Virus record (IMG/VR): IMGVR_UViG_3300046535_000113
Span: 1-31,188 of that record
DNA: 31,188 bases
DNA from: a virus
Reading direction: 5' to 3' (one strand)
Shown: positions 7,429-29,906 of the stretch, piece after piece
Layout: the number at the start of each line of letters is the position of its first letter
How positions within the stretch are numbered: the stretch's first letter is position 1
Notes under the pieces: model-generated
What the model was told of the DNA's origin: nothing
Seen by the model: only the letters and a program-made list of their open reading frames with translations
The model's database searches: none
Made by a program: the position numbers and the translations under genes

Positions 7429-7430
7429 CG

Positions 7431-8231: not shown

Positions 8232-8242
8232 GGACAAAGAAG

Positions 8243-8323: not shown

Positions 8324-8329
8324 GCCTCA

Positions 8330-8743: not shown

Positions 8744-8756
8744 CGAGGAAATGGTA

Positions 8757-9263: not shown

Positions 9264-9286
9264 TCCTCTGGACACGGAGTAACATG

Positions 9287-11096: not shown

Positions 11097-11127
11097 TGCC
11101 GCACCTCACCATCGCCGACGCTGAATC

Positions 11128-11133
11128 AAGGAG
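11128..11133 (+). promoter_or_regulatory. Ribosome site deciding start at GTG 11141
   Basis: AAGGAG lies 7 bases before GTG 11141. The upstream in-frame ATG 11096 lacks such a site and adds residues that do not resemble the family, so the GTG is preferred. Confidence 0.7.
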
Positions 11134-11140
11134 CGGAACT

Positions 11141-11353: not shown

Positions 11354-11361
11354 GGCACCAG

Positions 11362-11724
11362 ATGGCCCGTTCAAGCGGTTTCTATGATCACGAGACCAGC
11401 CAGAAGGCGCGTGGCGAGAAACACGGCGCGGAAGGCTCGGCCGAGGAAGAGCGGACGGAGAGCCCGTCCGAAGCAAAGGCCGAGGGCGACAAGCCTGGTG
11501 AAAAGCAGGCAGAAGAGCGGCAGGCCATGTTCAAGCGCCACGAGGTCGAGCGGCGTGATCTGCATGGCAGCCACCGCGACGATCACCGGAAGATGCAAGA
11601 CCGTCACGAGAAAGAGGTTGCCGCCATGATGGCGGCACACGAGCAGATGGCGGCGATGGGCAATGTGGCCAGTCAGCCGGGAGCTGCGGCGGAACCCGCA
11701 GCGCAGCCGGCACAGGCGGCTTGA
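11362..11724 (+). CDS. Charged coiled-coil protein, GFYD motif at N-terminus
   Basis: ATG 11362 has GAGG 6 bases upstream and gives 120 residues. It begins MARSSGFYDHETSQKA, so the GFYD motif here is N-terminal, unlike its two upstream neighbours. Residues about 25-90 are an uninterrupted charged helix rich in Glu, Lys, Arg and His (MFKRHEVERRDLHGSHRDDH, KMQDRHEKEVAAMMAAHEQM), likely a coiled coil. The last 20 residues are Ala/Pro-rich and disordered. No family is recognised; a structural or tethering role in the head is plausible from context. Confidence 0.7.
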   Translation: MARSSGFYDHETSQKARGEKHGAEGSAEEERTESPSEAKAEGDKPGEKQAEERQAMFKRHEVERRDLHGSHRDDHRKMQDRHEKEVAAMMAAHEQMAAMGNVASQPGAAAEPAAQPAQAA

Positions 11725-11726
11725 TC

Positions 11727-12041
11727 ATGGCGCGCTCGTGGAGCCGGATGGTCGACATGGAGCTTGACGACGAGGAAAAACTCGATGCCGTCATGCCTAT
11801 CGCGATGCCGGATCGGCCGGATTATCCCTACGGCTTGCGCATCTGCCTGACGCAGCGGGAGTTGACCAAGCTTGGCCTTGAAGCCGATTGCGAGATCGGG
11901 GATCTGATCGACATTCGAGCGTTCGGAGAGGTCACGAGCATATCCAAGAACGATGGGCCAAATGGCCCCGATTGTCGCGTGGAAATTCAGTTGCAAAGGC
12001 TCAGTCTAGAGGACGAAGCCCTAGAGGATATGGACGAATGA
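11727..12041 (+). CDS. Capsid staple protein (epsilon15 gp10-like)
   Basis: The 104-residue product (ATG 11727) has the conserved core DRPDYPYGLRICLTQRELTK, then LGLEADCEIGDLIDIRAFGE, VTSISKND and a final VEIQLQRLSLED. The YPYGL...L...LEKLGL...G..V.i.a.A.V..vS pattern is that of the small staple proteins described in epsilon15-like capsids (gp10, about 111 residues), which lie on the shell and clamp neighbouring coat subunits. Length agrees. Here the gene is about 5 kb from the coat gene, separated by the secreted/membrane cassette. TTG 11721 is an alternative start overlapping the previous stop. The next gene overlaps by ATGA. Confidence 0.8.
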   Translation: MARSWSRMVDMELDDEEKLDAVMPIAMPDRPDYPYGLRICLTQRELTKLGLEADCEIGDLIDIRAFGEVTSISKNDGPNGPDCRVEIQLQRLSLEDEALEDMDE

Positions 12042-12298
12042 GCGATAAGCCTGAACGCCGGTCGCACATGGTCGAGCGAGCGATCCGCCACCCTGACGAC
12101 ACGGCTACCCACATCGAACGGGTGAATGGTGCCAATGTCGTGTGGGCACCAGGACTTCCCGCTGTCCCCGATCAGCACACGGTTGAGGAGCGGGCTCAGC
12201 AGCAGCAGCAGCTGGCACATGATCAGGCGACGAGCCGGGAGAGAGCCGCTTCTCAGAAGGCACCTCCGTCACACCGGCGGACCCCGCGCCGGAAATGA
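12038..12298 (+). CDS. Hypothetical small protein, Gln-rich
   Basis: ATG 12038 overlaps the staple-gene stop (ATGA), giving 86 residues. It begins MSDKPERRSHMVERAIRHPD, has a central NGANVVWAPGLPAVPDQHT and then a Gln/Ala/Arg/Ser-rich tail (ERAQQQQQLAHDQAT) ending in basic residues. It is hydrophilic, with no membrane segment or catalytic motif. Coupled translation on both sides supports a real gene; function unknown. Confidence 0.65.
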   Translation: MSDKPERRSHMVERAIRHPDDTATHIERVNGANVVWAPGLPAVPDQHTVEERAQQQQQLAHDQATSRERAASQKAPPSHRRTPRRK

Positions 12299-12519
12299 TG
12301 AACCGCGGCAGGCTGGTCCCGCAGGTGCAGGGGAACGTGTTGACCGGGAACATCAACATGGGGCAATACGCGACGCCGCAATCGGCGCACCAGTCATCCA
12401 TCCCCGATCAGACGACGCATTTCGGGTTGATCTTGATGATGGGCGCACCGTGGTCGGCGCTGTCCGCCAGTTCGCTTTTCCCGACCGATAGCAGCCTCAT
12501 CACGATAGGCGTGCCATAG
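12295..12519 (+). CDS. Hypothetical small protein
   Basis: The 74-residue product starts at ATG 12295 (or 12298), overlapping the previous stop. The N-terminal half is Asn/Gln/Gly-rich (VPQVQGNVLTGNINMGQYAT). The C-terminal half is moderately hydrophobic (HFGLILMMGAPWSALSASSL) and could form a membrane helix or a buried strand. Its stop TAG is directly followed by the ATG of the next gene. No known family. Confidence 0.6.
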   Translation: MMNRGRLVPQVQGNVLTGNINMGQYATPQSAHQSSIPDQTTHFGLILMMGAPWSALSASSLFPTDSSLITIGVP

Positions 12520-13191
12520 ATGCCCAATATCCAAATATCCGATCGCAACGGCAATCCCGTTTCGATTGATTCCAACGGGGTTGGGGCGAACGTCGCCGCG
12601 ACGCAGGTTATCGCGGATCAAAGCGGCAACAAGTTCACTCTGGCCCCCGGCCTCATTGCCCTTCCAGTCAGCACCGATCTGATAAAGGCGGCCTACTGTT
12701 ACGCAGGGACGGCCTTCGCTCCGGTTGCCACGCCGACCGACATCATCCAAATCCAGGGGTCTGGCACGAAGACGGTTCGCATCAAGAGGATCAAACTGAG
12801 CGGCGGGGCGACGGCGGCGGGGAACATGCCGGCGCTGCTGTTTCGCCGATCGGCAGCCGATAGCGGGTCCGCGGTTCTGACGCCGGTCACGGCCGGGAAA
12901 CTCGATACGACCGACGCTAGTTCCACGGCTGTCGTCTCGACGATCGGGACCGCCAATGCGACGTCGCTTGGCGCCCAGGTTGGTGGACAGCTTCGTTCGG
13001 GGCGCGTGCAGATGCCGGCGATCGGCAGCGGCATCGGGGTTGCTGAACTGGTCTGGGAATTCGGCAGGGTCACGAAGTCCTGTGTCCTGCGCGGCACCAG
13101 CGATTTCATCTGCATCAATCTAAACGGCGCGGCGATCCCCTCTGGCGGGGTGATCGATTGGGAGATCTTGACCGAGGAAGACCTATCGTGA
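12520..13191 (+). CDS. Probable virion surface (decoration-like) protein
   Basis: A 223-residue protein starts at ATG 12520 with no gap. It is beta-rich and Ala/Thr/Gly/Ser-rich, with a recognisable block PTDIIQIQGSGTKTVRIKRI followed by LSGGATAAGNMPALLFRRSA and LTPVTAGKLDTTDASSTAVV. I recall this DxxxIxGSxTKTIRVxRI...KRS layout in structural genes of alphaproteobacterial phages, without a proven role. It ends VIDWEILTEEDLS. No signal peptide, in contrast to the spike that follows with a one-base overlap. Confidence 0.68.
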   Translation: MPNIQISDRNGNPVSIDSNGVGANVAATQVIADQSGNKFTLAPGLIALPVSTDLIKAAYCYAGTAFAPVATPTDIIQIQGSGTKTVRIKRIKLSGGATAAGNMPALLFRRSAADSGSAVLTPVTAGKLDTTDASSTAVVSTIGTANATSLGAQVGGQLRSGRVQMPAIGSGIGVAELVWEFGRVTKSCVLRGTSDFICINLNGAAIPSGGVIDWEILTEEDLS

Positions 13192-15188
13192 TGCAGCGCT
13201 TTCTTCTCGCGAGCGTGATGCTGCTGTGGGCCTCGGCTGCCTTCGCGCAAGGCTCAGTGCAGCAGCTAGGTCCGGTGGTGTCGGGTCACATCCCGATGTG
13301 GAACAGCAATGGCCGCATCATGGATGGCGGCGGTTCGCCGGGAGCGGGGCAGCAGCCCGCTAACAATACGAATGCCGGGACGTTGCCTACTGGCCTCGCC
13401 GTGGTCAACTCTGGTCTCGGCTATTGCGATTATAGCGCCTATGCGAGCGCGACTTACAATTCGTTGTGCTGGGGATTCGATGGCAGCGGCAATGGCCTGA
13501 TCGATCTAGAGGGACCGAACGCGACCTTCAGTATCAAAATTAATGGCACGACCTATCCGTTCCCCGGTACAGGGACGGGTAACGTAGTCGGGCCGGTATC
13601 GACGACGGTTGGGCACGCGGCTCTGTGGGCGAACACTGCGGGCTCGCTGCTGAGCGACGGCGGCCAGCCGCCTTCGTTTGCGCCCGGCGTCGTAGCGGAT
13701 GGGGTCATCGGTGCGACAACCGGTACCGACAACACGGCGGCGCTTCAGGCTATCGCCAATGGCATCACCAAGGGACAGCTCGTTCTGTTGCCTCCGGGGG
13801 TGATCAAGGTCACCAGCACGGTGACGTGGCCGGTCGGGGCTACAGTGTGCGGAGCCGGGTCGCCTGGTTACAACAACACGAACGCCGATTATGCGGGCGC
13901 CGGATTGAAGGGCACGATCGTCCAGACGACCTCCGGCTCAGGTGACGTGTTCCAGACGACGGGCGAGGACCGGTTCCTGTTCTGCAACTTTGCGTTTGAT
14001 TATTCGGGGGCTTCGCCGCGGTCCGGTGGAGCGTACATCAATTTTGTAGGGAATTTCATAACTCCCGGTTCGGGGACCGTGCAGCGCATGCCGGAAGTCA
14101 ATGCGGTACAGTTCCGCAAAGGATACGTCGATATCCAAGAAGGGTTCGTGGCGCAGCCGCGTGTCATCAACACCGCCCACGAAGATTTTGCTTTTGCTGG
14201 CATTTACATTGTCGAGAATGCTACCGGGGCAGATTATGGCGACGGGGTGTTCGAGGGTAATTTATTTACAGAACTGAACATCTCCGCCGGGACTTGCACG
14301 GCAGGCATTCTTAATCTTGCGACAGGATTGACGACGGTTACTGCCAACAAGTTCAACGGTTGCAAATATGGATGGGATTTAGAGCTTACCTACGGCCCTA
14401 CCGGGACCGCTCTTGTCCGAGGCAATTCGTTTGAAAACCAAACGAACACAGCAATTTTGATGAACCAGGCATCGTCAGGGATCGATTACGGGTCTGTGAC
14501 GATCGCCGACAATGAATTTCTCAGTTTTGCAAACCAGTTCCCGGCGAATGGATTGATACGGATTGCTGCGGGGACATCGAGTGCGCCTGATACACCGAAC
14601 TGGATTTGGCGCGTTAACATCCACGACAACCATATGTACGCGCCCTACACGTCAGCAGCGCCATTGATTAGCTTGCAAGACGGCGGCGGAGTGACCGTGC
14701 ATGACAACATCTGCGATTTGATCCTTGCCTCTTCGGGGCCGCCCTGTATCACCGTTGGCGGCAATGCGGGCGGCAGCGCCTCAGGGTTTGTAGCATTGCT
14801 GAACAATATGCCGGTTCGCTACGGCAGTAACATATTCTATGGACCAATCAAGGATGGAACGGTAATCAAGGATATCATCTATACAACCGGTAATTCGTTA
14901 GGTACTACGACAGAGCCGACAATTACCAGTTGTGGCACGTCCCCGACCGTTTCCGGGACCGATCAATTATTTCAGATAACCGTTGGCAGCGGTGGCCCTG
15001 TTACAGCTTGCACCGCGACATTGGGGGTCAAGCCGGCTGTAACTCCGTTGTGTGTCATCACGGGGCAGGCAAGTGGTGCTCTTGTCTTTTCGTATGCGCA
15101 GTCGATAGTCGCCGGTAAACAGGTGATCACGGTAAATTCGTCTGCGGACATGACTGGGGCTGCGGTTACGGTGAGCTGTTCGCCGTAA
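13191..15188 (+). CDS. Tailspike-like protein with signal peptide and beta-helix
   Basis: The 665-residue product starts at ATG 13191 (GAGGAAG at 13174-13180, about 10 bases away). Residues 1-20 form a Sec signal peptide (MQRFLLASVMLLWASAAFAQ). Two copies of a GPV-x-x-x-x-GH-x-x-x-W-x-(5-7)-DGG element (about 27-47 and 134-158) frame a small bead domain with CWGFDGSGNG. From about residue 165, GATTGTDNTAALQAIANGIT and LVLLPPGVIKVTSTVTW open a pectate-lyase-type right-handed beta-helix extending to about 560. The last about 90 residues (ITSCGTSPTVSGTD, VTACTATLG, TVSCSP) form a Cys-bearing C-terminal domain. Such proteins bind and often cut host surface polysaccharide as trimers. Catalytic residues cannot be assigned by eye. 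GC drops in the second half, suggesting exchange of the receptor-binding part. Confidence 0.82.
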   Translation: MQRFLLASVMLLWASAAFAQGSVQQLGPVVSGHIPMWNSNGRIMDGGGSPGAGQQPANNTNAGTLPTGLAVVNSGLGYCDYSAYASATYNSLCWGFDGSGNGLIDLEGPNATFSIKINGTTYPFPGTGTGNVVGPVSTTVGHAALWANTAGSLLSDGGQPPSFAPGVVADGVIGATTGTDNTAALQAIANGITKGQLVLLPPGVIKVTSTVTWPVGATVCGAGSPGYNNTNADYAGAGLKGTIVQTTSGSGDVFQTTGEDRFLFCNFAFDYSGASPRSGGAYINFVGNFITPGSGTVQRMPEVNAVQFRKGYVDIQEGFVAQPRVINTAHEDFAFAGIYIVENATGADYGDGVFEGNLFTELNISAGTCTAGILNLATGLTTVTANKFNGCKYGWDLELTYGPTGTALVRGNSFENQTNTAILMNQASSGIDYGSVTIADNEFLSFANQFPANGLIRIAAGTSSAPDTPNWIWRVNIHDNHMYAPYTSAAPLISLQDGGGVTVHDNICDLILASSGPPCITVGGNAGGSASGFVALLNNMPVRYGSNIFYGPIKDGTVIKDIIYTTGNSLGTTTEPTITSCGTSPTVSGTDQLFQITVGSGGPVTACTATLGVKPAVTPLCVITGQASGALVFSYAQSIVAGKQVITVNSSADMTGAAVTVSCSP

Positions 15189-17263: not shown

Positions 17264-20254
17264 GTGGCCGTCAACGTCATCCATACCGCCTTCACGCGTG
17301 GCGAAATAGCGCCGGGGCTCTGGGGGCATGTAGATTGGGCTGGATGGGGTTCGGCAGCTACGACGCTGCGGAACCTTTATGTGGGATATCGAGGCGGTGC
17401 ATATTCCCGTGCGGGGACTGCATTTGTAGGACGGTCAAAGCAAAATCCGGCATCGGGACAGGCTCCTCCCCGCCTCGTCTCATTTGAGTTTTCGACCACA
17501 CAGACAATGGTTCTGGAATTCGGTGATTATTATATCCGGTTCATCAATCATGGAGCATTTGTAACAGAAAATCCTGTCGCCATTACGGGGGCGACACAAG
17601 CAAATCCCTGCCAGATTACGGCAGCCAACACCTACACCAATGGCGATTGGGTCGCTATTTCGGGCGTCAACGGGATGACGCGACTCAATGGCAACACCTA
17701 TGTCGTTGCCAACGCGACAGGGGCGAATTTCACGCTCAAGGACGCTGACGGCAACAATATAAATTCTACGGGCTATACCGCTTATACCAGTGGAGGGTCG
17801 GCGGCCAGGCTCTACGAGGTCATCACACCCTATACGGGCGCCAATGATCTGACGCTGTTGAAGTTTGCTCAATCGGCAGACGTGATTTCGATCACGCACC
17901 CGCTTTATCCGCCTTACGACCTGAAGCGGTTTGGGCCAACCACTTGGTCCCTTGCGCCGACCTCATTCGATGCCAAGATCGCGGCGCCGGGGAATGCCAC
18001 AGCCGTTGCTACGACGCACCCTAGCGGGTCGACCACGCCGCCGACGCTACCGGCTGCTTATGCTTATGTCGTGACGGCGGTCGACCCGAAGACTGGTGAG
18101 GAAAGCGTCGCGTCAAATGTCGCGAACGTGACGGATTCGGTCGATATTGCGGCCACGGCTGGGTCTATCATCGTCAATTGGGATACGGTCGCGGGCGTCG
18201 GTCATTACAACCTTTACAAGGCGCCGACCTCATACAACACCGGTAATTCGACGAACGCTCAGCCGGTTCCTGTCGGTGCGCAATTCGGGTTTATGGGGTT
18301 CTCGTACGGCAATCAGTTCGTCGATTCCAACATTTTCCCCGACACGTCACGCGCCCCTCCCAAACATCAAAACCCATTCGCTACCGGGCAAATTCTCAGC
18401 GTTACGATGGGCGCTAGCAGCGCGGACTGGACAGTGGCGACGCCCACGATTGCCACGTCTACGGGCAGCGGGTTCATCGGCAACTGCGTTATCATAAATA
18501 ATACGATAGTCGCTGTGATCGTTGACAATGCCGGAGAGAATTATCGAGATACGGATACTATAAGTTTTACGGGGGACGGCTCATCGGCGAGCGCTACACT
18601 TGACGTTGGGCCGCAAACCGGCACCTATCCTGGCGTTGTCTCATATTTCCAACAGCGCCGTGTCTATGCGGACACGTTGAATAACCCTGTAACCTACTGG
18701 GCATCTCAGCCTGGCGCGTTCACCAATTTCGACACATCGATCCCGGTCATTGATTCGGACAGCATCACGGCCACGGTGGCTTCGGAGCAGGTTAACGGCA
18801 TCCAGTGGATGATCCCGATGCCGCTCGGCCTCGTTACCTTTACCGGCGCGGGCATTTGGCAGATTTCGGCGCAAGCCAGCAGCCTCGCGGGTGGCGTGAC
18901 ATCGCTGACTCCGACGAGTGAAGTTGCAATCCCGCAGAGTTCAATCGGGTCAAGTGCGACTGTTCCCCCTATTCGGATTAATTGGGACATCCTCTATTTA
19001 CAGGCGCATGGCTTTACGGTGCGCGATCTTAGTTATCAGCTATTTTTCAATATCTATACGGGCATCGATATTTCGTGGCAATCTTCGCATCTATTGATCG
19101 GGCAGAAGCTTGTTTATTGGGCGTGGGCGGAAGAGCCATATCGGATATTGTGGTGTGTTCGTGAAGACGGTGCTTTGCTGAGCCTTACCTACCTCAAGGA
19201 ACAAGAGGTTATGGGGTGGGCGCGGCATGATACCTATGGACAAGTGAAAACAGTCTGCACGGTTAGCGAGCCGCCGGTAGACGCTCTGTATCTGGCGGTG
19301 CAACGAGCCACTGCGGGCGGGAAAACGGCCTATTACATCGAGCGCATGAATAATCGTATCTGGGCCGGCGTTGAAAGCTCGTGGTGCGTCGATTGTGGGC
19401 TGGCTCTGACCCAGCCAAACCCTGACGCCTTTATACTTTTCTCTAGTAACACTGGCGTCGCGATTGCGTTTTCCGATCCAGGGATTTTTGTTTCGGGGAA
19501 TGTCGGCAGCGTCATCCGCGCCAATGGCGGGATCGCCAAAATTACTGGCTACACGAGCGCAACACAGGTAACCGTGCAGTGGTTTTATCCGGCACCGGAT
19601 ACGCCGGATGCGCCGGCTGGTGTGGTGTCGTTTGTGGCAAAGCCAGGCGAATGGACGATGACGGCCCCCGTGACCAAGATAACCGGGCTAGATCATCTGA
19701 TCGGGCAGGTTGTGACCGGGCTCGCCGATGGCTTCCCAATAGCGCCGCAGGTGGTGCAGAACGACGGGTCGATCACGCTCGGAGTGCCGGCGAGCAGCGT
19801 CGTGGTTGGCTTGGGGTTCACGGCACAATTGCAGACGGATTACCTCGAGACGGGGCAGCCAACTGTTCAGGGACGCCGGAAGATGATTCCCGCTGTCACG
19901 GTACGCGTGGAGGCATCCTGCCGCTACCAGGTGGGTGCCAATCAAGCCGACGCGTCGGCGCAGGCCGTTCCAGTGAGTGTGTCGCCTTGGGGCACCCTGA
20001 CCTCTATCAAGGATCAAAGCGTTCCGTACACCTCTCCTGGTGGGGCGACTATAACGCCATTGTTTACCGGCGATGAGCGCGTCGTCATTCCGGGGAATTG
20101 GGACAAGCCGGGGCAGGTTGCCGTGCAACAGGTTTTGCCTCTGCCATTAAACGTCCTCGCGACAATTCCGGAATTTGTCCCTGGTGATCTTCCGGAGATG
20201 GGTTTGTCTGAGCGTCCGCAGCGCGGGCAGCAGCAACGGTCGGCTCCGCAATGA
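17264..20254 (+). CDS. Tail nozzle protein (T7 gp12-type tubular protein B)
   Basis: A 996-residue protein from GTG 17264. Tail tubular protein B forms the hexameric nozzle that conducts DNA and ejection proteins. The opening HTAFTRGEIAPGLWGHVDWA, with TTLRNLYVGYRGGAYSRAGT, is the family hallmark. Inserted domains follow: an FCCH-like beta domain (about 105-182; CQITAANTYTNGDWVAISGV, NGNTYVVANATGANFTL) and an Fn3-like domain (about 243-345; YAYVVTAVDPKTGEESVASN, INVNWDT-like, HYNLYKAP). The core resumes with YPGVVSYFQQRRVYADTLNN and ends with MGLSERPQRGQQQRSAPQ. The next gene overlaps by ATGA. The inserts usually lie on the outside and may bind fibres or host. Confidence 0.9.
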   Translation: MAVNVIHTAFTRGEIAPGLWGHVDWAGWGSAATTLRNLYVGYRGGAYSRAGTAFVGRSKQNPASGQAPPRLVSFEFSTTQTMVLEFGDYYIRFINHGAFVTENPVAITGATQANPCQITAANTYTNGDWVAISGVNGMTRLNGNTYVVANATGANFTLKDADGNNINSTGYTAYTSGGSAARLYEVITPYTGANDLTLLKFAQSADVISITHPLYPPYDLKRFGPTTWSLAPTSFDAKIAAPGNATAVATTHPSGSTTPPTLPAAYAYVVTAVDPKTGEESVASNVANVTDSVDIAATAGSIIVNWDTVAGVGHYNLYKAPTSYNTGNSTNAQPVPVGAQFGFMGFSYGNQFVDSNIFPDTSRAPPKHQNPFATGQILSVTMGASSADWTVATPTIATSTGSGFIGNCVIINNTIVAVIVDNAGENYRDTDTISFTGDGSSASATLDVGPQTGTYPGVVSYFQQRRVYADTLNNPVTYWASQPGAFTNFDTSIPVIDSDSITATVASEQVNGIQWMIPMPLGLVTFTGAGIWQISAQASSLAGGVTSLTPTSEVAIPQSSIGSSATVPPIRINWDILYLQAHGFTVRDLSYQLFFNIYTGIDISWQSSHLLIGQKLVYWAWAEEPYRILWCVREDGALLSLTYLKEQEVMGWARHDTYGQVKTVCTVSEPPVDALYLAVQRATAGGKTAYYIERMNNRIWAGVESSWCVDCGLALTQPNPDAFILFSSNTGVAIAFSDPGIFVSGNVGSVIRANGGIAKITGYTSATQVTVQWFYPAPDTPDAPAGVVSFVAKPGEWTMTAPVTKITGLDHLIGQVVTGLADGFPIAPQVVQNDGSITLGVPASSVVVGLGFTAQLQTDYLETGQPTVQGRRKMIPAVTVRVEASCRYQVGANQADASAQAVPVSVSPWGTLTSIKDQSVPYTSPGGATITPLFTGDERVVIPGNWDKPGQVAVQQVLPLPLNVLATIPEFVPGDLPEMGLSERPQRGQQQRSAPQ

Positions 20255-20700
20255 CCTACGAAATCCTGCCATGCCGGGTCGCGCACATCCGCGAACTTGC
20301 CCGTACGATGCGCTCAGAGGATCGCGAGGAAATAGAGTTGGTCGGGTTATCGCCGCGGCACCTGCTGCATGATCTGTGGCGGTCCTCGCTCGACCCGAAA
20401 GCTGCACTGATTGACGGGGAAGTGGCTGCGGTGTGGGGCGACAATGCGCCGATGCTGGCTCGGCAAGGCAGCATGTGGCTGTTCACCGCGCCGATCATCG
20501 CCAGGCTGCCGCTGGCCTACTTCCGGGAGGCCCGGCGGGACATACGCCAGCGGTTAGAGATGCGCGAGGTGCTTCATGCGCATGTCGCCTGTACCTATGA
20601 GCGCTCGCTGCGGTTTTTCGAGATGCTGGGGTTTACGGTTGGGGAGCCGATCGAGAATGCGCTGTTCCGCGAGATCAGGATAGAACGCTGTGGGCTTTGA
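20251..20700 (+). CDS. GNAT-fold internal virion protein (T7 gp13-like)
   Basis: 149 residues, with ATG overlapping the nozzle stop. The end, YERSLRFFEMLGFTVGEP (about 117-132), is the typical GNAT C-terminal helix-strand, and the start, YEILPCRVAHIRELARTMRS, is the usual first strand and helix. The acetyl-CoA pyrophosphate loop (R/Q-x-x-G-x-G/A) is not visible, so catalysis is doubtful. Podoviruses, including T7 (gp13), encode such a GNAT-like protein immediately after the nozzle; it is thought to act in virion maturation or as a minor internal protein. Position strongly supports that role here. Confidence 0.82.
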   Translation: MTYEILPCRVAHIRELARTMRSEDREEIELVGLSPRHLLHDLWRSSLDPKAALIDGEVAAVWGDNAPMLARQGSMWLFTAPIIARLPLAYFREARRDIRQRLEMREVLHAHVACTYERSLRFFEMLGFTVGEPIENALFREIRIERCGL

Positions 20701-21271
20701 CCTTGGCATTAGCGAAATAGCGGCCGGCGCGAGCCTCATTGGTACGGCAGTCTCGGCTGTCGGGGCTGTGTCGAGCGGGAATGCCGCAGCTGCTCAGGCC
20801 AATTATCAAGCGCAGGTCGCGGCCAACAATGCCATTACAGCCCAGCAGAATGCCGTCTACGCCACGCAGGCAGGCGAGGTTAAGGCAACTGATCAGGCGA
20901 TGCGGAACCGTGCGCAAGCCGGCGCTACTCGAGCGGCGTTGGCTGCCTCGGGGTTAGATGTCAACACCGGCTCGCCGGAAGAAGTGCAGCGAACGCAATC
21001 CGAATTGGGCCAGACAGATGTAGAGCGCGTGAGGCAGCAGGCGTCGCTACAGGCGTACGGCTACCGTACGCAGGCCACGAGTTTCCAGGCGGAATCCGGT
21101 CTGGACAAGGCTATGGCCAGCTTTGACAAGACAGGGGCCTTGTTCAAGGCGGGCGGCACACTCCTGTCGGGAGGAGCAAATCTGTTCGGAACAAAACTCG
21201 CTGGGTTGGATACAACGGGCGGAGCTGGTTCCTCGATCACCGATTCCCCATTCTTTTATGGGACGCCCTAA
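20690..21271 (+). CDS. Internal virion/ejection protein (T7 gp14-like)
   Basis: GTG 20690 (AGGA 9 bases upstream) gives 193 residues, overlapping the GNAT gene by 11 bases. Residues about 8-35 are a Gly/Ala/Ser-rich hydrophobic helix (IAAGASLIGTAVSAVGAVSS), followed by a long Gln/Ala-rich helix (QANYQAQVAANNAITAQQNA) and VYATQAGEVKATDQAMRNRA. ALAASGLDVNTGSPEEVQRT and YGYRTQATSFQAES complete the pattern. This is the hallmark layout of gp14-like ejection proteins, which insert into the outer membrane on infection. The order GNAT, gp14-like, transglycosylase-bearing protein, large core protein mirrors T7 genes 13 to 16. Confidence 0.85.
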   Translation: MGFDLGISEIAAGASLIGTAVSAVGAVSSGNAAAAQANYQAQVAANNAITAQQNAVYATQAGEVKATDQAMRNRAQAGATRAALAASGLDVNTGSPEEVQRTQSELGQTDVERVRQQASLQAYGYRTQATSFQAESGLDKAMASFDKTGALFKAGGTLLSGGANLFGTKLAGLDTTGGAGSSITDSPFFYGTP

Positions 21272-24200
21272 GTGGCGCACATACTCACGATTCCTGCTGC
21301 TTTATCGCCCGCTCCGACCGTCTCGCCAGCGGGTGAGCCGCCGCGTGATTACCAGAACATCCAGACCAGTCCGCGCCAGTTCGGCGCCCAGATCGGTCAG
21401 GGGGAGGAAGAATTAGGGGCCGGCTTTTCGGCTGCCGGCAAACTCTTTGGTCAGGTGGCGGCTGACCAAGCTTCCAACAATTACGAGACCGAGACGACAA
21501 AGCTGCTGTTTGGTGATCCCGATGCGGCTCCTGGCACGACTGAAAGTAAGGGGTTCTATGCTCTTCATGGGCAAGACGCGATGGACGCGATGCCCGCGGT
21601 ACGGGATAAGCTGTTGAATTTGCGGCAGCAAATGGGGTCATCGCTAACCACAGTCGATCAGCAGTTGATGTTTAACCAGCAGACCCGTTACCAGCAGTTC
21701 AGGCTACTAGGGGAAATCGGGCGGCATTACGACCAGCAGGCGCAATCGTGGGCGCAGACTGTCAACAAGAATTCCGTCGATAACGCGGTTCAGAGCATCA
21801 CAGCACGACCTGACGATGACGCTAATTTTAATGATCAGGTTGAGAAAGCTATCAATGCTGAGATGAAGATCCTGGAGAACTCGGGGCTTGGCGGCAGCGT
21901 TGAGGCTCGAGTTCACGCAATGAACGATGCTCGCGGTCGGGCAGATGCGGCAAGGGTGGAGGGATGGCTAGGCTCCAACAATCCGGCGGCGGCGAAAGCG
22001 TATCTGCAACAGAATCGTGATGCTATTGCCGGGCCGCTTTTCGATACGCTCTGGCGACGTGCGACGGCTGGCGACGACAAGGCGGAAACGGCGGCTATCC
22101 TTGACCGGATGTTTGGTGGGGCGATCGCTGGGACGGTGCCGCGTGGTAGCGGTGCGGCTCCGTTACCTCCAGAACAATATAAGCCGCTTATCAAAAAAGC
22201 GGCAGATCAATACGGCGTCCCCGAGGAATTGTTGACGCGTATGCTGTCGGCAGAAAACGGTTTCAAACCGACAGGTGTGTCATCTGCCGGTGCTCGCGGC
22301 ATCGCGCAATTCCTGCCGTCAACTGCGCGGGAATACGGCATCGACCCGGATGACCCAACGCAAGCAATCCCAGGTGCCGCGCATTACCTCGCTGACCTTA
22401 AGGCCAAAACGGGCACATGGAACGGCGCGGTGCGCGGCTATCTCGGCGGCGATCCGCACAAGGATGCCTCATACACACGCAATGGTGTACCGCAACTAAT
22501 CGATATCCTCGATCATGGCGGATCACCGACTGCGGCGGCTACTGGCGGTGGCGGAGAAATGGAGGTCTGGGGCGACAGCCTCGGCGTTGGCCTTCAAAGT
22601 CACCTAAAGACAGAGGGCCATGTTCACGGCGGAGACACGCCGCAAGCCATTTTTGACAACATCAAAGCGCAGCCGGCGGATTACTGGCAGGGCAAGACTA
22701 TCGTTCTTCCTTCCGGCACTAACGGCAATCAGATGCCGGCGGTCGAGGATACGATCAAGTACCTCAAGGACAACGGCGCCAACGTCATCGCGGTTGGCTA
22801 TGGCCCGAAATTTCCCGAGAAAAACGCAGAGCTTACGGCTATAGCCGGTCGTCAGAAGGTGCCTGTGATCGCAGCGGAGGGTGTAGGGGCAGCAGAAGGT
22901 GTCCATCCCGGCCCGCAGGGGTATGCGGCGATGGCGCAGAAAATCAGGGCGGCTGGAGTATCAAACCCGCAAGTCCAGCCGATCCCACCTGCTCAGCCAC
23001 AATCGCCGATGACGGCTCCTGTGCCAGGGATGCCGACGCGCGAGGAGATCATCCAGCGCATCCCGGAAGGATTGTCGCCCGAGCAATACAACCGCGTCTA
23101 TTCGGGGGCAATGCAGCGTTACAGCCGCCAGATGCAGGCGACCTCGGCCGATCGTGCGACGGCCCTTCAGCAGTACAAGGGCGGCCTCGCGATGCTGCAA
23201 GACGGTCGCGATTTTCAATATGACCCGAATACCTATCATCGGCTTTTCCCGACCGACCAAGCGAATGAGATGCTTGGCAACCTTCAGGATGCCCAGACGA
23301 TCGGGCAGCAGATCACGGCTGTTCGCAATATGTCTCTGTCGGATATCGTTTCGCAGCGCGTCGCGAACCAAACCGTTCTCTCGCATAGCACCGGGGTCGA
23401 TTACGAACAGCAGCGCAAGCGCGCCATTGCCTTTGATAGAGCGGCGGAAGTCCATATAAAGGCACTCGGGGAAGACCCTGCCGCCTACGTCACAACGAAC
23501 AATCCAGAAATCCTCTCGGCGCAGCAGGCGATCGGCACGCAATCGGCGCAGGATTCGGCTACCCTACGAGGGGCCGGTCAACCCGACGCAGTAGAAAGTT
23601 TTGCGGGCAAGCTGCTGGCCGAACAGGAGCGGCTAGGCATCCCGGCTGATGCGCGCCATGTGCTGACGAACAGACAGTCGCAAGCGACGATGCAGCAAAT
23701 TACGTCAAATCCGGAACAGGCTCCTGCGGCCCTACAGGAGATGCAGCAGCGGTGGGGGACTGCTTGGCCCGAGGTGTGGCGCGATTTGGTAACTGTCGGA
23801 AAAATGCCGGCGGCCTACCAGATGGTCGGCGCACTCGATAATCAAGGAGACGGCGCGTTACTGGCGCGAGCACTTGGTCACGCCAACAAGGAGGGGGTTA
23901 ATCGCGATCTTAGCGAGTTGATCGACAAGGGCGCTACCGGCGTTACAAAGCCATCGCAGGCTATCCGCACACGCATCGAAGGCAGCGAAGACATCCAGAA
24001 ATATGCCCGGTCGATGTTGGCCTCCGGTGCCTCGATCGCTCAGGTGAATGGCATCGTGTCATCGATCGATTTGCTCGCACAAGCAAAGGCTCTCTACCAC
24101 GGCGAGGATGCGGGCGCCGCAGCCGATCATGCAATCGAGAGTGCAATCGGGAAGTACGAGTTCATGCCGAACGGGGGAGCAAGGATTCCGCGCGCCAATG

Positions 24201-24496
24201 CGGATGCCATCACGGCAGCGGCGCGGGATTATGTTTCCTCTTTGACATTCAATGATGTTCAGCAGCCATCCTCTTATACTGCCGGTGCTCCTGTACCCGG
24301 TGCGGCGACAGGGCAGGACTGGTTTCGGGTGCTGCAAGCCTCGCCTAACTGGTTGACGGTCGGACAGGCAATTCGGCTGATGGATCAGCAGGGCCGCTTC
24401 GTCAAACGGGCTGACGGAAACTTTATCGAGGTGCCGTTCAACGCGGTTGCCCCAACAGCCGCGCCTCTGTCTCCGATTCCGACACCAGTATATTAA
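21272..24496 (+). CDS. Ejection protein with transglycosylase and SGNH domains
   Basis: 1074 residues from GTG 21272, directly after the previous TAA. Residues 1-290 are helical, Gln-rich core. At about 301-400 lies a goose-lysozyme/SLT-type lytic transglycosylase: YGVPEELLTRMLSAENGF (catalytic Glu about 328), SSAGARGIAQFLPSTAREYG and the later AAHYLADLKAK. After a Gly-rich linker, residues about 429-563 form an SGNH/GDSL hydrolase: WGDSLGVG (Ser about 436), PSGTNGN (Asn about 484), and EGVHPGPQGYAAMAQKI (His about 545). The usual Asp three residues before the His is Glu. Residues about 590-1074 are again helical, virion-core like. It probably enters the periplasm with the DNA, cuts glycan strands and removes ester-linked acyl groups. 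The pairing of these enzymes is unusual. Confidence 0.88.
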   Translation: MAHILTIPAALSPAPTVSPAGEPPRDYQNIQTSPRQFGAQIGQGEEELGAGFSAAGKLFGQVAADQASNNYETETTKLLFGDPDAAPGTTESKGFYALHGQDAMDAMPAVRDKLLNLRQQMGSSLTTVDQQLMFNQQTRYQQFRLLGEIGRHYDQQAQSWAQTVNKNSVDNAVQSITARPDDDANFNDQVEKAINAEMKILENSGLGGSVEARVHAMNDARGRADAARVEGWLGSNNPAAAKAYLQQNRDAIAGPLFDTLWRRATAGDDKAETAAILDRMFGGAIAGTVPRGSGAAPLPPEQYKPLIKKAADQYGVPEELLTRMLSAENGFKPTGVSSAGARGIAQFLPSTAREYGIDPDDPTQAIPGAAHYLADLKAKTGTWNGAVRGYLGGDPHKDASYTRNGVPQLIDILDHGGSPTAAATGGGGEMEVWGDSLGVGLQSHLKTEGHVHGGDTPQAIFDNIKAQPADYWQGKTIVLPSGTNGNQMPAVEDTIKYLKDNGANVIAVGYGPKFPEKNAELTAIAGRQKVPVIAAEGVGAAEGVHPGPQGYAAMAQKIRAAGVSNPQVQPIPPAQPQSPMTAPVPGMPTREEIIQRIPEGLSPEQYNRVYSGAMQRYSRQMQATSADRATALQQYKGGLAMLQDGRDFQYDPNTYHRLFPTDQANEMLGNLQDAQTIGQQITAVRNMSLSDIVSQRVANQTVLSHSTGVDYEQQRKRAIAFDRAAEVHIKALGEDPAAYVTTNNPEILSAQQAIGTQSAQDSATLRGAGQPDAVESFAGKLLAEQERLGIPADARHVLTNRQSQATMQQITSNPEQAPAALQEMQQRWGTAWPEVWRDLVTVGKMPAAYQMVGALDNQGDGALLARALGHANKEGVNRDLSELIDKGATGVTKPSQAIRTRIEGSEDIQKYARSMLASGASIAQVNGIVSSIDLLAQAKALYHGEDAGAAADHAIESAIGKYEFMPNGGARIPRANADAITAAARDYVSSLTFNDVQQPSSYTAGAPVPGAATGQDWFRVLQASPNWLTVGQAIRLMDQQGRFVKRADGNFIEVPFNAVAPTAAPLSPIPTPVY

Positions 24497-27168
24497 TGGC
24501 CTTCGACATTATCCCTGACGGGGCGCCTGTTGAAGAACCTCAACAGTCGGCAGATATTGCCTATGCTGGCATTCCGGCTACGGCGGCGCAAGCCTTGGGT
24601 GCAGAGGCGCTATCGACAACGCGTTCCCTCCAGCGCGTCACTACGCAAGGGTCATACGAGGGGGCTGATTGGTTTTCGCGCGCTCTCTACGCGGTAGGCG
24701 CTTATGGTGGCGCACGCCCCGAAGATCCGCTAGCAGCATCGCTTGAACCGCCGCCTCCGCCGCCAGCCAGTATCCCGACCCCGATGGCGGCACCGGAGGA
24801 ATACAACAAGCGATACGCGCCTATCGGTAACGACGGCAAGCCGGTCTCGCTCGGCGATAAGCCAATGCCTGACGCTATCGCCAAGCTGATCGGTGAGGCT
24901 AAGCGTGAGGAAATTGAGCGCAATAACATCCTCTCCCGCTATCAGGACGCTCATAGCTGGCCGGTTAATTTTGCAACCAGCGGGATTGGGTTCATGCTCG
25001 ATCCCTTGCGCGCTGCGACGGCCTTCATACCCGGCATTGGCGAAGAAGCGCTGCTGGCACGGTTCGGCTCCGGCATTCTCGCGAGAGGGGCCGCACGTAC
25101 CATTGCGGGGGGCGCTACCGGCGCGCTTGCGATGGCTCCGGTTGCGGCGCTCGAATACGGTCTGGGACAGGAAGAAGCATCCGATTACGGCCTGCGGCAG
25201 GCGTTGCGCGATGTGGCGTTTGGCGCCGCCGGCAATGCCATCATTCATGCGGGCATCACGGGCCCGGTCGGCGACATCCTTCGCTATCGCCGTGGTGAGG
25301 TGCAGCCGGGCGCCTTGAATGTTCCGGCGCCCGAAGCGGTGCCGACCGCTTCCGAGATTGTGCATGCCGATGCGCAGACACAGCACGCGGCGATGAGCGC
25401 CGCGGTCGCGGAACTGGCCGAGGGCAGGCCGGTTGATGTAACGCCGATCTTCCCGCCGCCGCTACGCACGCCGGAACCGGTCGAGGGGCTTCAGTTCCTC
25501 GAACCCGTCATCCCCGGCGCAAGGCGCGCGACGATTGCGGAGCGGGAAGCGGCGGGTGCTGTGCATCCTTCCGCACGGGTCGGGATTCAGGAAAACTCGG
25601 CCGGTGGATTTGATGTAGAGACGCCGCTTGAGGGAATTATGCATGCGGAAACGCGGGAGCAGGCTGAGCAGATTGCCGGACGCTACCGGCGGCTCGATCC
25701 TCAAGCGGCGGAAGCATATGAACAAATCACCGGTCGGAATTATGCGGAGGATTGGCGTAATAACGCTGTAGATGCTGCTGCGGCAGCCAGGGCCGCAGAA
25801 GTGCCGATGGGTCGGCAGCGCACCACCATCGTCATCAATGGCGAGCGAACGGTTATTGAAGGGCCGACCAGAACGCCGGCTGATCTCGCTGCCTCGCAGC
25901 AACAGCGCTACCGCGACGGATTTGCGCCCGGTGTGCCAGATAGCGAACTGCGGCAGACGGCGGCTGAGATTTACGATGCGAAGCTACAGCGGTTAGCTAC
26001 CCTTGAGATCGAAAACCAGATGCCGGAGGGCGGAGGCACCTTCTTTCAGCGCAAGGCTGAAGAAGAGATGCAAGCCGCCGCAGCTCCGCCAGCACCAGCA
26101 CGACCAGAACCTGTAGAGATGAAGGTTCCTCGCGAACCGACGCGGATAACCGAATTTCTACGCAAGTCAGGTGGCGTGCAGGATCAGGGTGGCGAGATCA
26201 GCCACGTCATCGGCGGCAAGCGCTTTCGTCCGGGTCTGATTAATGGGCGCGGAATGACGCTCGATGATGCCGCGCTGCGGGCATGGGAAGAGGGCTACTT
26301 CCCGGAAATGACCGAACGTCCGACGATCAATGACCTGCTGCAAGCCGTGCAGGATGAAGCGCAGGGAATAAGGCGCTATTCGGCCAAGGATGAGGCCGCA
26401 GTTACCGCTTACCAAGGGGCGTTGGCGCACAATGCCGAAGTGGATAGGCTATCAAACGAGACCGGGATTGAGACCGCCGGGAAGACGCGCTCTCAATTTT
26501 TTGACGCAGTGCGGGATCATCTATCTGTAGAAGAGGCAGCGCGCCGTGCCGAGACCCTTGCGACCGCGCATGAAATAAGCCTTGCTGCTGCGGAGCGCCG
26601 GGCCGCAGAATGGGCGGCTAGTCGTGGTGATGCGTGGGAAGCCGATTACGATGTCGGCAGGCCACGAACACTGGAAGAGTTGGAAGATGCCTATCGACAG
26701 GAAGAAGCTGCTCGATGGCCGAGAGCGGGCGCGGGCGGCGCTGGCGCACCCGGATCTGCCACAGGCGCTCCGCGACCAGTTCAAGCTGGCGCTGGACCAG
26801 GCGAACGCGGCATTGGGACTGGACGACTCGCTGAGCCAGCCACAGAACTTACCGACCAAGGTGAACAATTAATCTTCCCCGGTGCCGAACGATCGGCGCG
26901 GCAGGCGGCGCAGGCACGCGAAACGACTGGTCGCGGGATGATGCGCGGGGCTACTCCGCAGGAGGAGGCGGGCGGCCTTTTTGCGCTTCCTAAAGAGGCT
27001 CAGGAAGAATTGTTCGCCGCGCAGCAGCGTCTCTCGGAAATCGAGAGTGGATTAAGCGCCGAAGAACGCGAGCAAATCGCTGTAGCGCAAGCGGCTCTGC
27101 CGGAAGCTGAAGCCAAGGCGCAGGCTATTGCCGAAGCGGCGCTCTGCCTTAAAGACACGGGGCTCTGA
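24496..27168 (+). CDS. Large internal virion (ejection) protein
   Basis: 890 residues, starting on the last base of the preceding stop. An N-terminal region with a PPPPPP linker (about 85-90) leads to a Gly/Ala-rich, membrane-compatible block (about 170-255; FIPGIGEEALLARFGSGILA, AGGATGALAMAPVAALEYGL, FGAAGNAIIHAGI), the kind seen in podoviral ejection proteins that bridge the envelope. The middle is helical and charged. Residues about 735-785 are a Gly/Ala/Pro linker that coincides with an out-of-frame ORF, followed by TDQGEQLIFPGAERSARQAA and GGLFALPKEAQEELF, a motif pair I associate with phage internal proteins. No enzyme site is recognised. It sits between the transglycosylase protein and the second large core protein with overlapping starts and stops. 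Confidence 0.8.
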   Translation: MAFDIIPDGAPVEEPQQSADIAYAGIPATAAQALGAEALSTTRSLQRVTTQGSYEGADWFSRALYAVGAYGGARPEDPLAASLEPPPPPPASIPTPMAAPEEYNKRYAPIGNDGKPVSLGDKPMPDAIAKLIGEAKREEIERNNILSRYQDAHSWPVNFATSGIGFMLDPLRAATAFIPGIGEEALLARFGSGILARGAARTIAGGATGALAMAPVAALEYGLGQEEASDYGLRQALRDVAFGAAGNAIIHAGITGPVGDILRYRRGEVQPGALNVPAPEAVPTASEIVHADAQTQHAAMSAAVAELAEGRPVDVTPIFPPPLRTPEPVEGLQFLEPVIPGARRATIAEREAAGAVHPSARVGIQENSAGGFDVETPLEGIMHAETREQAEQIAGRYRRLDPQAAEAYEQITGRNYAEDWRNNAVDAAAAARAAEVPMGRQRTTIVINGERTVIEGPTRTPADLAASQQQRYRDGFAPGVPDSELRQTAAEIYDAKLQRLATLEIENQMPEGGGTFFQRKAEEEMQAAAAPPAPARPEPVEMKVPREPTRITEFLRKSGGVQDQGGEISHVIGGKRFRPGLINGRGMTLDDAALRAWEEGYFPEMTERPTINDLLQAVQDEAQGIRRYSAKDEAAVTAYQGALAHNAEVDRLSNETGIETAGKTRSQFFDAVRDHLSVEEAARRAETLATAHEISLAAAERRAAEWAASRGDAWEADYDVGRPRTLEELEDAYRQEEAARWPRAGAGGAGAPGSATGAPRPVQAGAGPGERGIGTGRLAEPATELTDQGEQLIFPGAERSARQAAQARETTGRGMMRGATPQEEAGGLFALPKEAQEELFAAQQRLSEIESGLSAEEREQIAVAQAALPEAEAKAQAIAEAALCLKDTGL
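26687..26872 (+). CDS. Candidate nested out-of-frame gene
   Basis: In the +1 frame within the large internal protein gene, ATG 26687 has GGAAGAG about 7 bases upstream and opens a 61-codon frame ending TAA. The product is a compact, highly charged, helical protein: MPIDRKKLLDGRERARAALA, HPDLPQALRDQFKLALDQAN and AALGLDDSLSQ. By hand count about four in five of its codons end in G or C, whereas the host-gene frame over the same bases has fewer than half and encodes only a Gly/Ala/Pro linker. This favours genuine dual coding. The function is unknown; no membrane segment, so not a spanin-type nested gene. Confidence 0.5.
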   Translation: MPIDRKKLLDGRERARAALAHPDLPQALRDQFKLALDQANAALGLDDSLSQPQNLPTKVNN

Positions 27169-29906
27169 TGGCAAGATCAACGGAAGCGTGCATAGCGCGC
27201 GTCGCCGCTAAAGGCTCGATAGGACAGGCGGAAGCGGCGCAAATCCTGGAAGATGTCGCCTTCCGAGCTGAGAAGATGCGGGCAAGCGGCATTGAAGATC
27301 CGATTGTGGCTGCGGCCGGCGCTGCTGCGATGGGGATCAAGGAGAAAGCACGCCGGGATTTGCTCGACGCCATCCGCAACGCCGACGCGCGATCGGCGAT
27401 GATCGCTCGTGCTGAAGGCGAGGCGGGTGGCAACATTGCTCCTCAACAGACACTTGCCGGTCGGCTTATTCCTGGGATGAAGGCGCTCGGCATCGCGGAC
27501 GGCATTCGCTCGATGATGTACTGGGTGCCTGGTGCGGCGCGCAAGGACAGCGCTGAAACGATGTGGCAAACGCAGGCGCGGAATGCGGTCTCGGTTGTCG
27601 GCAATAGGTTGCGTCGTGACGGTGTTGAGAAAGCCGCTCTCGCAATGCGTGGGACGCCGCTGGAAGGCGAAGTCGCCGAGGCGATGTGGCGCAACAACGG
27701 CGGCGACCCAAATAGCACGGTAACGATTTCGTCGACCGCACAGAAGATTGCCGATGCGTATTCGCCTGCGCTCGATCTGATCCGGCGACGGCAGAACGCG
27801 GAAGGCGCGCGCATCGGAACGGCCATCGATTACGTGACGCACACGAATTGGGACCCGCGCCAATTGCGTCTCGCTGCGGGATACGGAGCCGATCCCGAAG
27901 CGGCGTTTCAGGCGTGGCGAGCGCGTGAAGAACCTCGGATGGCCGAAAAGACGTTCGATGAGATCACGCCGCGCGAGGGTGAAAGCGAAGCCGATGCCAA
28001 GACACGGTTCCTACATTCGGTTTTCTACGCCACGGCTTCCGGCGTTCATTTGAGACAGCCGGGGATGGCCGGGATGGCGGCTGATGACGGCGGCTTTATC
28101 CCTCCGGCGTTTGAAGGGACGCACAATGTCGGGCGATCCGTCTCGCAGCCGCGGGTGATTTTCTGGAACAACGCAGGGGATTGGCTCGCCCATATGCGCG
28201 AGTTCGGTGGCGGCGACGGACTTTACGCGCAGGTGTCTCGCACTTTGCAAACCGGCGCACGGAAGACGGCGCTGCTGCACTATTTCGGGACGAACCCGGA
28301 AGCCAACCTCAATATGGTGATCCGCAAGATTCAGGAGAAATACCGGGAAGACCTAGACGGATTGGCGCGCTTCAATGCGCAGACGGACAGCTTGCGCAAC
28401 GCGATGGGGCGGCTTACGGGTTCATTGAACATCCCGTCAAATGCCGATCACGCTGCGGCTTTCGAGACGCTGATGAGCCTTGAAGCGATGTCGCATTTAG
28501 GCGGGGTGTCGATAACTCACCTTTCGGCTGCGCCGGGCACATTCGGGTCGGAAATGGCGCATCACGGCGTCGGGCGCTGGGAAACAATCCGCAATATCGC
28601 AAGCTCTATCGTTACCGGACGCGGTGGCCAGATCGAGCAGGACGCACTAGCCGATGCCGGTGCTTATGTGCATGGCTATGCCAACGCCCAAGCGCGATCG
28701 GCTGGTGCATTTGATCACGGAATTCCAGGTTTCGCGTCCTGGTCTGCCGGACACTTCATGCGGCTAACCGGCTTGCCGCAGGTGCTCGATAAAATTCAGG
28801 CGAAGGGCGTCAAGGGTGTTCTGATGGATCGCCTTGGACGCGCGGCGAACGGCACATTTGACCAGATCGAACTGCACCAGCGCACGGTGCTTGGCAGCTA
28901 CGGCATCGGCCCGGCGGAATGGGATCTGATCCGCAACGCAGCAGATCCCGCGATGGTTGAGGGGCGGCGGTGGGTAACGCCGCATGACGGCATTGCTGCC
29001 GATCCGGCTGCTACCGAGACCCTGTTGCGGCGGCAGGGTGTTATCTCTCCCGAGACTACGCCCGAGCAGGTCGGCGCAGCGGTCCAGCGCAAGCAATGGG
29101 ATATGGCTGACCGGCTGGGAATGTATCTCGACGACGCGGCTGATCACGGTGCGGTGCAGTCTGGTATCCGCGAGCGCGCAATGGTTCTCGGAAATCTCCG
29201 GCCGGGCGACAAGTCCTACATGCTCTGGCGGGCGCTGGCGCAGTTCAAGATGTGGCCGTTGGCGGCGGCCAATCAGATCCTCGGGCGCGAGATCGCCATG
29301 TCGTTGTCTGGCAAGGAGATGTGGTCGAACATCGGCGCACTGCTTGCTCTTGGCACCGCCGGGGGCGCACTCCGTATGGCGATCAATGATGCCGTCACCG
29401 GCAATACCCAGCGTGATTATCGCAATCCGGTCACGCTATTGGCGGCATTGGCGCAGGGCGGCGGCCTCGGCATCTACGGTGATTTTCTGTTCGGCGAAAC
29501 TAGCCGGCTTGGCGCAGGCGGCATCGCTACGATGGTCGGGCCGATCGGGAGCGATTTCGACCGGGCGATGCGGATGTTCTCCGACTTCAAGCTGGAATTG
29601 AAGGATCACCCAGACAAAGCGTTATCACACCTCTGGCCCGATCTGGCTCGTTTTGCATCCTCGCATGTCCCGTTTGCGAACCTGATTTATCTCAAGGGCG
29701 CGCTCGACTACCTATTGTGGTATCACTTGTACGAGGCGGCATCGCCGGGATGGTGGGAACGGACAAATCGCCGAATCTCTCGTGAGACAGGACGCACAAT
29801 GCTGGGATACGAACCGGGTGGAGGAGTGCCGTGGGGAGTGCCTGGGCTTTACGTCGGCGCCGGCTCCTCGGCGCATGGCCTTCTAGCAGGCGCGACGGTG
29901 CATTGA
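27168..29906 (+). CDS. Very large internal virion core/ejection protein
   Basis: 912 residues from ATG 27168, overlapping the previous stop by one base. It begins with a helical RSTEACIARVAAKGSIGQAE block, and the mid-region includes IGTAIDYVTHTNWDPRQLRL and MSLEAMSHLGGVSITHLSAA. A likely membrane-active segment lies at about 690-800 (KMWPLAAANQILGREIAMSL, SNIGALLALGTAGGALRMAI, NPVTLLAALAQGGGLGIYGD). The C-terminus carries ALDYLLWYHLYEAASPGWWE, then RRISRETGRTM (about 843-875), a signature I know from large internal proteins of many podovirus-like phages. It is the expected counterpart of the T7 gp16 position and likely forms the translocation conduit. No catalytic motif is evident. Confidence 0.85.
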   Translation: MARSTEACIARVAAKGSIGQAEAAQILEDVAFRAEKMRASGIEDPIVAAAGAAAMGIKEKARRDLLDAIRNADARSAMIARAEGEAGGNIAPQQTLAGRLIPGMKALGIADGIRSMMYWVPGAARKDSAETMWQTQARNAVSVVGNRLRRDGVEKAALAMRGTPLEGEVAEAMWRNNGGDPNSTVTISSTAQKIADAYSPALDLIRRRQNAEGARIGTAIDYVTHTNWDPRQLRLAAGYGADPEAAFQAWRAREEPRMAEKTFDEITPREGESEADAKTRFLHSVFYATASGVHLRQPGMAGMAADDGGFIPPAFEGTHNVGRSVSQPRVIFWNNAGDWLAHMREFGGGDGLYAQVSRTLQTGARKTALLHYFGTNPEANLNMVIRKIQEKYREDLDGLARFNAQTDSLRNAMGRLTGSLNIPSNADHAAAFETLMSLEAMSHLGGVSITHLSAAPGTFGSEMAHHGVGRWETIRNIASSIVTGRGGQIEQDALADAGAYVHGYANAQARSAGAFDHGIPGFASWSAGHFMRLTGLPQVLDKIQAKGVKGVLMDRLGRAANGTFDQIELHQRTVLGSYGIGPAEWDLIRNAADPAMVEGRRWVTPHDGIAADPAATETLLRRQGVISPETTPEQVGAAVQRKQWDMADRLGMYLDDAADHGAVQSGIRERAMVLGNLRPGDKSYMLWRALAQFKMWPLAAANQILGREIAMSLSGKEMWSNIGALLALGTAGGALRMAINDAVTGNTQRDYRNPVTLLAALAQGGGLGIYGDFLFGETSRLGAGGIATMVGPIGSDFDRAMRMFSDFKLELKDHPDKALSHLWPDLARFASSHVPFANLIYLKGALDYLLWYHLYEAASPGWWERTNRRISRETGRTMLGYEPGGGVPWGVPGLYVGAGSSAHGLLAGATVH

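Follow-up and report, generated by a model that had tools for sequence, protein, structure and literature searches.

O-acetylation of the cell wall blocks lysozymes and lytic transglycosylases. Because lytic transglycosylases form a 1,6-anhydromuramoyl product, a 6-O-acetyl group on MurNAc precludes their reaction; Gram-negative bacteria whose walls are O-acetylated possess the esterase Ape to remove the acetyl group (PMC6174289). In Neisseria, the lytic transglycosylase LtgA and the esterase Ape1 are separate proteins that join in a complex, each enhancing the other (PMC7083599). Among phages, lytic domains are known in ejection proteins and are mobile between them (PMC8954989), and SGNH domains have been described in tail fibres and in the staphylococcal Tal protein (PMC10684548, PMC7048315, PMC5380687). 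No description of an SGNH domain joined to a transglycosylase in a podoviral ejection protein, or of the SGNH family traced here, was found in the literature searched, which mostly left out subscription journals and preprints.

The protein analyzed here is encoded in a stretch of viral DNA of 31,188 nucleotides (IMG/VR virus record IMGVR_UViG_3300046535_000113, positions 1 to 31,188), referred to below as the window. Its gene order follows that of Pseudomonas phage Ab31: terminase, portal, protease, capsid, tail protein B, two small internal virion proteins, the 1074-aa protein, and two large structural proteins. The genes around the protein of interest are as follows.

17264..20254, + strand: tail protein of the tail tubular B or nozzle type, context gene (PHROG 376, E=2e-154)
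20251..20700, + strand: small internal virion protein, context gene (PHROG 308, E=4e-17)
20690..21271, + strand: gp14-like internal virion protein, context gene (PHROG 418, E=5e-22; T7_gp14 E=1.4e-4, below cut-off)
21272..24496, + strand: predicted ejection (internal virion) protein of 1074 aa with a GTG start (synteny with Ab31 gp14; PHROG 342/10475)
24496..27168, + strand: further large structural protein of 890 aa, context gene (PHROG 3003, E=1e-14; position as Ab31 gp15)
27168..29906, + strand: large virion structural (internal) protein of 912 aa, context gene (PHROG 684, E=2e-101; homologous to Ab31 gp16)

The gene for the 1074-aa protein thus sits after the tail tubular B gene and a gp14-like gene, as expected of an ejection protein, and the product matched PHROG 342, "internal virion protein with endolysin domain" (E=1.7e-23). 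On this homology and synteny, it is predicted to be a T7-type ejection protein of an Ab31-like podovirus. Elsewhere in the window, the tail protein is longer than its Ab31 counterpart (996 versus 779 aa) and has an E1_FCCH-like match over residues 122-180. Between the capsid and tail genes (7260-15188), the tested ORFs 7260-8231, 9616-10902, 12520-13191, and 13158-15188 gave no PHROG match; the last of these, of 676 aa, weakly matched a pectate-lyase beta-helix and may be an unusually placed tailspike. No tRNA was found in the window, and Pfam matches to VWA and UBact were discarded as below cut-off.

Within the 1074-aa protein, two enzymatic domains lie between the halves of a scaffold, and the following features were mapped.

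21272..22126, + strand: N-terminal scaffold, residues 1-285, common to relatives without SGNH (family HMM)
22187..22459, + strand: SLT (GH23) lytic transglycosylase domain, residues 306-396 (PF01464, E=2.2e-14)
22253..22255, + strand: Glu328 in an AENGF motif, presumed catalytic (residue numbering; SLT family knowledge)
22460..22555, + strand: linker, residues 397-428, Gly/Ala-rich at its end (pLDDT <50 just before SGNH in the two-domain model)
22556..22960, + strand: SGNH hydrolase domain, residues 429-563 (independent HMM, AlphaFold2, Foldseek)
22577..22579, + strand: Ser436 of the block I GDS motif, presumed nucleophile (no exception in 13 family members)
22631..22633, + strand: Gly454 at the oxyanion position of block II (a Gly in 11 of 13 members, aligned to SpOatA Ser461)
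22721..22723, + strand: Asn484, block III GTN motif (conserved; Asn in G(T/V)N of OatA, PMC5697884)
22895..22906, + strand: Glu542-Gly-Val-His545, block V, with ExxH for the usual DxxH (His in every member; an acid, D/E, at -3 in 11 of 13)
22997..24493, + strand: C-terminal scaffold, residues 576-1074 (hhalign to the C-terminal part of Ab31 gp14)

Both ends of the protein are related to Ab31 gp14. A family HMM of the N-terminal 290 residues matched Ab31 gp14 (E=4e-18), MW202478 (E=2e-16), and Vibrio phage MZH0603 (E=4e-15), and the C-terminal 500 residues aligned with the C-terminal part of Ab31 gp14 by hhalign with 95.8% probability (E=7e-9), compared with at most 0.7% for shuffled controls. 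Ab31 gp14 occupies the same gene position; it has 699 aa and no Pfam SLT or SGNH match, and lacks a cassette of about 300 residues that is present in the window protein. Because both the N- and C-terminal parts match, the window protein is best described, by homology, as an Ab31-type scaffold with an SLT/SGNH cassette of that size placed between the scaffold halves.

The first half of the cassette scored 53.4 bits against PF01464, well above the curated GH23/SLT cut-off of 21.3, and is the single SLT domain of the contig. Glu328, which we take to be the catalytic residue from knowledge of the SLT family, lies in a sequence that conforms to the E(S/N)xF signature around the catalytic Glu of GH23/SLT enzymes.

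The second half is an SGNH domain. In Pfam, the isolated domain remained below cut-off (PF19040, E=0.009, 16.2 bits versus 27; PF00657, E=0.03, 14.8 versus 23.6), and for this reason the initial annotation, made from the letters alone, had called it from its motifs. The Pfam miss reflects the detection threshold, and membership of the SGNH superfamily rests on fold, motifs, and profile searches. An HMM built from four proteins of other phages and scaffolds (L027, L028, L036, and L039 among the relatives described below) matched residues 433-526 with E=3.1e-15, compared with E=0.08 for the best of 2000 shuffles of the window protein, and its top matches included not one of the other 272 window ORFs. 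When a 13-member SGNH profile was compared with PDB sequences, the top eight were all SGNH/GDSL enzymes (best E=1.4e-4), with SpOatA among the best, while phmmer of the single window domain against the PDB returned only noise. Structure prediction, proposed with the initial annotation as a check, gave an SGNH alpha/beta fold for the isolated domain: the AlphaFold2 model from an 11-row alignment had a pLDDT of 92.4 and a pTM of 0.88. Foldseek against the PDB placed the catalytic domain of S. aureus OatA first (E=7e-5, probability 1.00, TM 0.71/0.63), followed by E. coli thioesterase I (TesA), a GDSL-family protein, and PAF acetylhydrolase (PAF-AH); the probability of 1.00 extended to TesA and PAF-AH. 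The OatA match may come in part from both being compact SGNH domains. A model of the two domains together (pLDDT 76, pTM 0.51) is too uncertain for the relative placement of the domains or their active sites.

These results bear out the architecture given in the initial annotation, namely an internal virion protein of 1074 residues with an SLT-type domain at about 301-400 and an SGNH hydrolase at about 429-563. The virion assignment agrees with the Ab31 synteny, the PHROG 308 and 418 neighbors with their weak T7_gp14 match, and the N-terminal homology to Ab31 gp14; both sets of proposed domain boundaries hold to within a few residues, and the SGNH assignment is backed by the independent HMM, the PDB profile search, the predicted fold, Foldseek, and the motifs.

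Blocks I, II, III, and V of the SGNH superfamily are all present (S436, G454, N484, and H545), with Glu542 as the acid where Asp is usual. Even between deeply diverged members, neither the Ser nor the His changes and the Gly-Asn region of block III is retained; the acid at -3 relative to the His is Glu in the window, is lost in L040, and departs in L036 as well. Block II separates the domain from its best structural match. OatA has Ser in place of Gly in this block, preceded by Val/Ile, and its Val460 favors transfer, with V460G/A cutting transfer 10- and 5-fold and raising hydrolysis slightly (PMC5697884). The window has HGGD at this position, with neither the invariant Val/Ile of OatA nor its loss of the esterase Gly arrangement, and the N-terminal membrane acyltransferase domain of OatA was absent from the window protein in the Pfam scan. 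The Gly kept at block II in 11 of 13 members, together with the V460G/A effects, favors a predicted esterase over an OatA-type transferase.

To trace relatives, SGNH domain sequences alone, free of any lytic sequence, were used as queries. Eight members share the N-terminal scaffold (the window, L029, L030, L031, L033, L034, L035, and L040), and five more reside in other proteins: L027, L028, the giant proteins L036-L038, and L032 and L039, both environmental. With tblastn, the window domain gave no match in 50,697 phage records, relatives there being reached only via intermediate sequences. A whole-protein scan of viral contigs found no relatives, and neither did SGNH-alignment scans of 84,980 prokaryote genomes by a pattern-based method that reaches close relatives only.

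The pairing of SGNH with a lytic domain recurs in this set. The partner is an SLT domain in the window, L029, L030, L039, and L040, and an endolysin/transglycosylase PHROG domain in L031, L033, and L035, so that on the shared scaffold only L034 lacks a lytic domain recognized by Pfam or PHROG. Outside the scaffold, the partner is a phage lysozyme (Pfam, 5.7e-8) in the tape measure protein of a Helicobacter pametensis prophage (L027), a peptidase M15 (Pfam, 6.8e-7) in a protein of Synechococcus phage S-H38 (L028), and a tail lysozyme in L036 (1.9e-6), with a weak tail lysozyme match in L032 (0.036). Because this scaffold also occurs with a lytic domain and no SGNH (MW202478, L010), its eight SGNH members do not count as independent cases; MW202478 has an SLT match and no SGNH match in Pfam, and L008 and L009 are further scaffold relatives that lack SGNH. 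The independent pairings are L027, L028, L036, and L039, with L032 added weakly.

Several relatives deserve description in their own right. In the L027 tape measure protein (L027:4411-7113), the SGNH domain is followed by a GH24 phage lysozyme domain, and ten viral contigs (L043-L052) carry SGNH domains 91-100% identical to that of L027. In S-H38, a 1196-aa protein encoded near baseplate genes (L028:4273-7860) joins SGNH and the M15 peptidase. The giant phage proteins L036-L038 and L002 (PHROG 19273, at least 3369 aa) have SGNH directly before Phage_lysozyme2, at about 8001-8420 of L002. The closest relative of the window protein, L029, contains an extra insert of about 125 residues between SGNH and the C-terminal scaffold. 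In L034, whose SGNH domain is 68% identical to that of the window, the segment at residues about 305-480 may hold an undescribed wall hydrolase. Flanked by baseplate genes in Salmonella phage SeF6a is the gene for a stand-alone 141-aa SGNH relative that probably has a signal peptide (L041:4941-5366) and is annotated as "putative lipase"; a fused lytic partner is therefore not obligatory.

Comparison of the scaffold relatives indicates that the two modules have been exchanged separately. Against the window, L031, L033, and L034 have SGNH domains 61-73% identical, lytic segments that are unrelated (z about 0), and N-terminal scaffolds 30-37% identical. L033 and L035 have the lytic domain in common (53%) and differ in SGNH subtype (42%); for L035 and L040 the reverse holds, with one SGNH subtype (71%) and no relation between the lytic segments. 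That the modules should be exchanged separately and yet repeatedly co-occur is the best argument for a role of the SGNH domain in wall cutting, although it does not prove the substrate.

Taken together, these observations suggest, with moderate confidence, that the 1074-aa protein is a wall-piercing ejection protein whose SGNH domain de-O-acetylates peptidoglycan for the adjoining lytic transglycosylase. At infection, the protein would leave the capsid and reach the periplasm, presumably ejected with the DNA. The SGNH domain would there hydrolyze acyl esters of peptidoglycan, the 6-O-acetyl of MurNAc being the likeliest. Deacetylation would free the C6 hydroxyl that the neighboring lytic transglycosylase needs for its 1,6-anhydro product, in this putative order, and a local hole in the wall would be opened for the DNA channel. 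A peptidoglycan-linked role, with de-O-acetylation of MurNAc ahead of the lytic domain, is the most likely one for the SGNH domain judging from the sequence comparisons. In line with this reading, Ab31, whose version of the scaffold has no recognizable SLT or SGNH domain, has a host species that is listed as one without wall O-acetylation (PMC7083599). The initial annotation had proposed the removal of O-acetyl groups from either peptidoglycan or a surface glycan before lysis; the peptidoglycan version gains support from the OatA fold match, the block II Gly, and the repeated pairing with peptidoglycan-cleaving domains, and the surface-glycan version stays as a rival.

According to that rival, the SGNH domain removes acetyl groups from a glycan of the outer surface (O-antigen, capsule, or exopolysaccharide) in the manner of a tailspike and merely rides on the ejection protein. 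Phage tail fibres and spikes are indeed known to contain SGNH deacetylases (PMC10684548, PMC5380687), and several tail proteins appeared among the viral fold-search matches. An internal protein, however, is expected to act behind the outer membrane, the other enzymatic module of these scaffolds cleaves peptidoglycan, and the window encodes a separate beta-helix, tailspike-like protein at 13158-15188, by a weak match. We consider a surface glycan an unlikely target. A lipase, or a lipoprotein or LPS deacylase aiding membrane crossing by the ejected proteins, appears improbable: the best fold match is a carbohydrate acetyltransferase, the domain is compact at 135 residues, and it repeatedly shares a protein with wall hydrolases, even though thioesterase I and GDSL lipases are among its fold neighbors and the SeF6a relative bears a lipase annotation. 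Little weight is likewise given to a catalytically dead domain acting in peptidoglycan binding or as a structural spacer, which could account for the Glu in block V of the window and the departures of L040 and L036 at the acid position but fits poorly with the Ser, His, and block III Gly-Asn retained over such divergence. An O-acetyltransferase like OatA or PatB that modifies the wall, for example by resealing it or limiting lysis, is very improbable despite the structural rank of OatA, its good profile match, and the common GTN motif, as the OatA block II Val/Ile-Ser is replaced by the esterase Gly and no recognized part of the virion protein would provide an acetyl donor.

Some observations also speak against wall de-O-acetylation for a lytic transglycosylase as the best explanation. 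L028 has a peptidase as partner, which O-acetyl groups would not obviously hinder; the SeF6a relative is unfused; the acid at -3 varies as described, to Glu in the window and with its loss in L040; and L034 has no recognized lytic domain. More broadly, and tentatively, the family may represent widespread, hitherto unrecognized small esterase-type SGNH domains of OatA-like fold that phages carry in the proteins with which virions puncture the wall (ejection proteins of podoviruses, tape measure proteins, baseplate and giant proteins), serving as a portable wall de-O-acetylase shuffled among peptidoglycan-cleaving domains to counter wall O-acetylation; we regard this generalization as possible, though it is more doubtful than the reading of the window protein itself. 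If correct, a virion-carried esterase coupled again and again to whichever lytic domain a phage has would be a direct, testable answer to injection through an O-acetylated wall, and such small de-O-acetylase modules could be paired with lytic enzymes against bacteria with O-acetylated walls.

Compared with described systems, the window protein resembles the T7 gp16 and gp15-type ejection proteins in being an internal virion protein with an SLT domain encoded in a similar gene cluster. In T7 the SLT domain is at the N-terminus of gp16, whereas here it lies within a gp15-position scaffold of Ab31 type, and the window protein has an SGNH domain, which is not mentioned for T7-type ejection proteins in PMC8954989. 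The Tal proteins of the staphylococcal phages phi11 (gp44) and 80alpha (gp59) are also virion penetration proteins for which an SGNH/GDSL domain has been proposed in wall degradation (PMC7048315, PMC5380687); Tal is a hub protein of a long-tailed phage with a Gram-positive host and an endopeptidase partner in place of the transglycosylase, and its wall activity is predicted as well. The OatA C-terminal catalytic domain, the best fold match, has the GTN and (D/E)xVH motifs in common with the phage domain; OatA is a transferase with an atypical block II, and the phage domain has the esterase-type Gly. The functional counterpart would be LtgA with Ape1 of Neisseria, a lytic transglycosylase and a peptidoglycan O-acetylesterase (PMC7083599, PMC6174289), which are two cellular proteins there and would be united in one phage polypeptide here.
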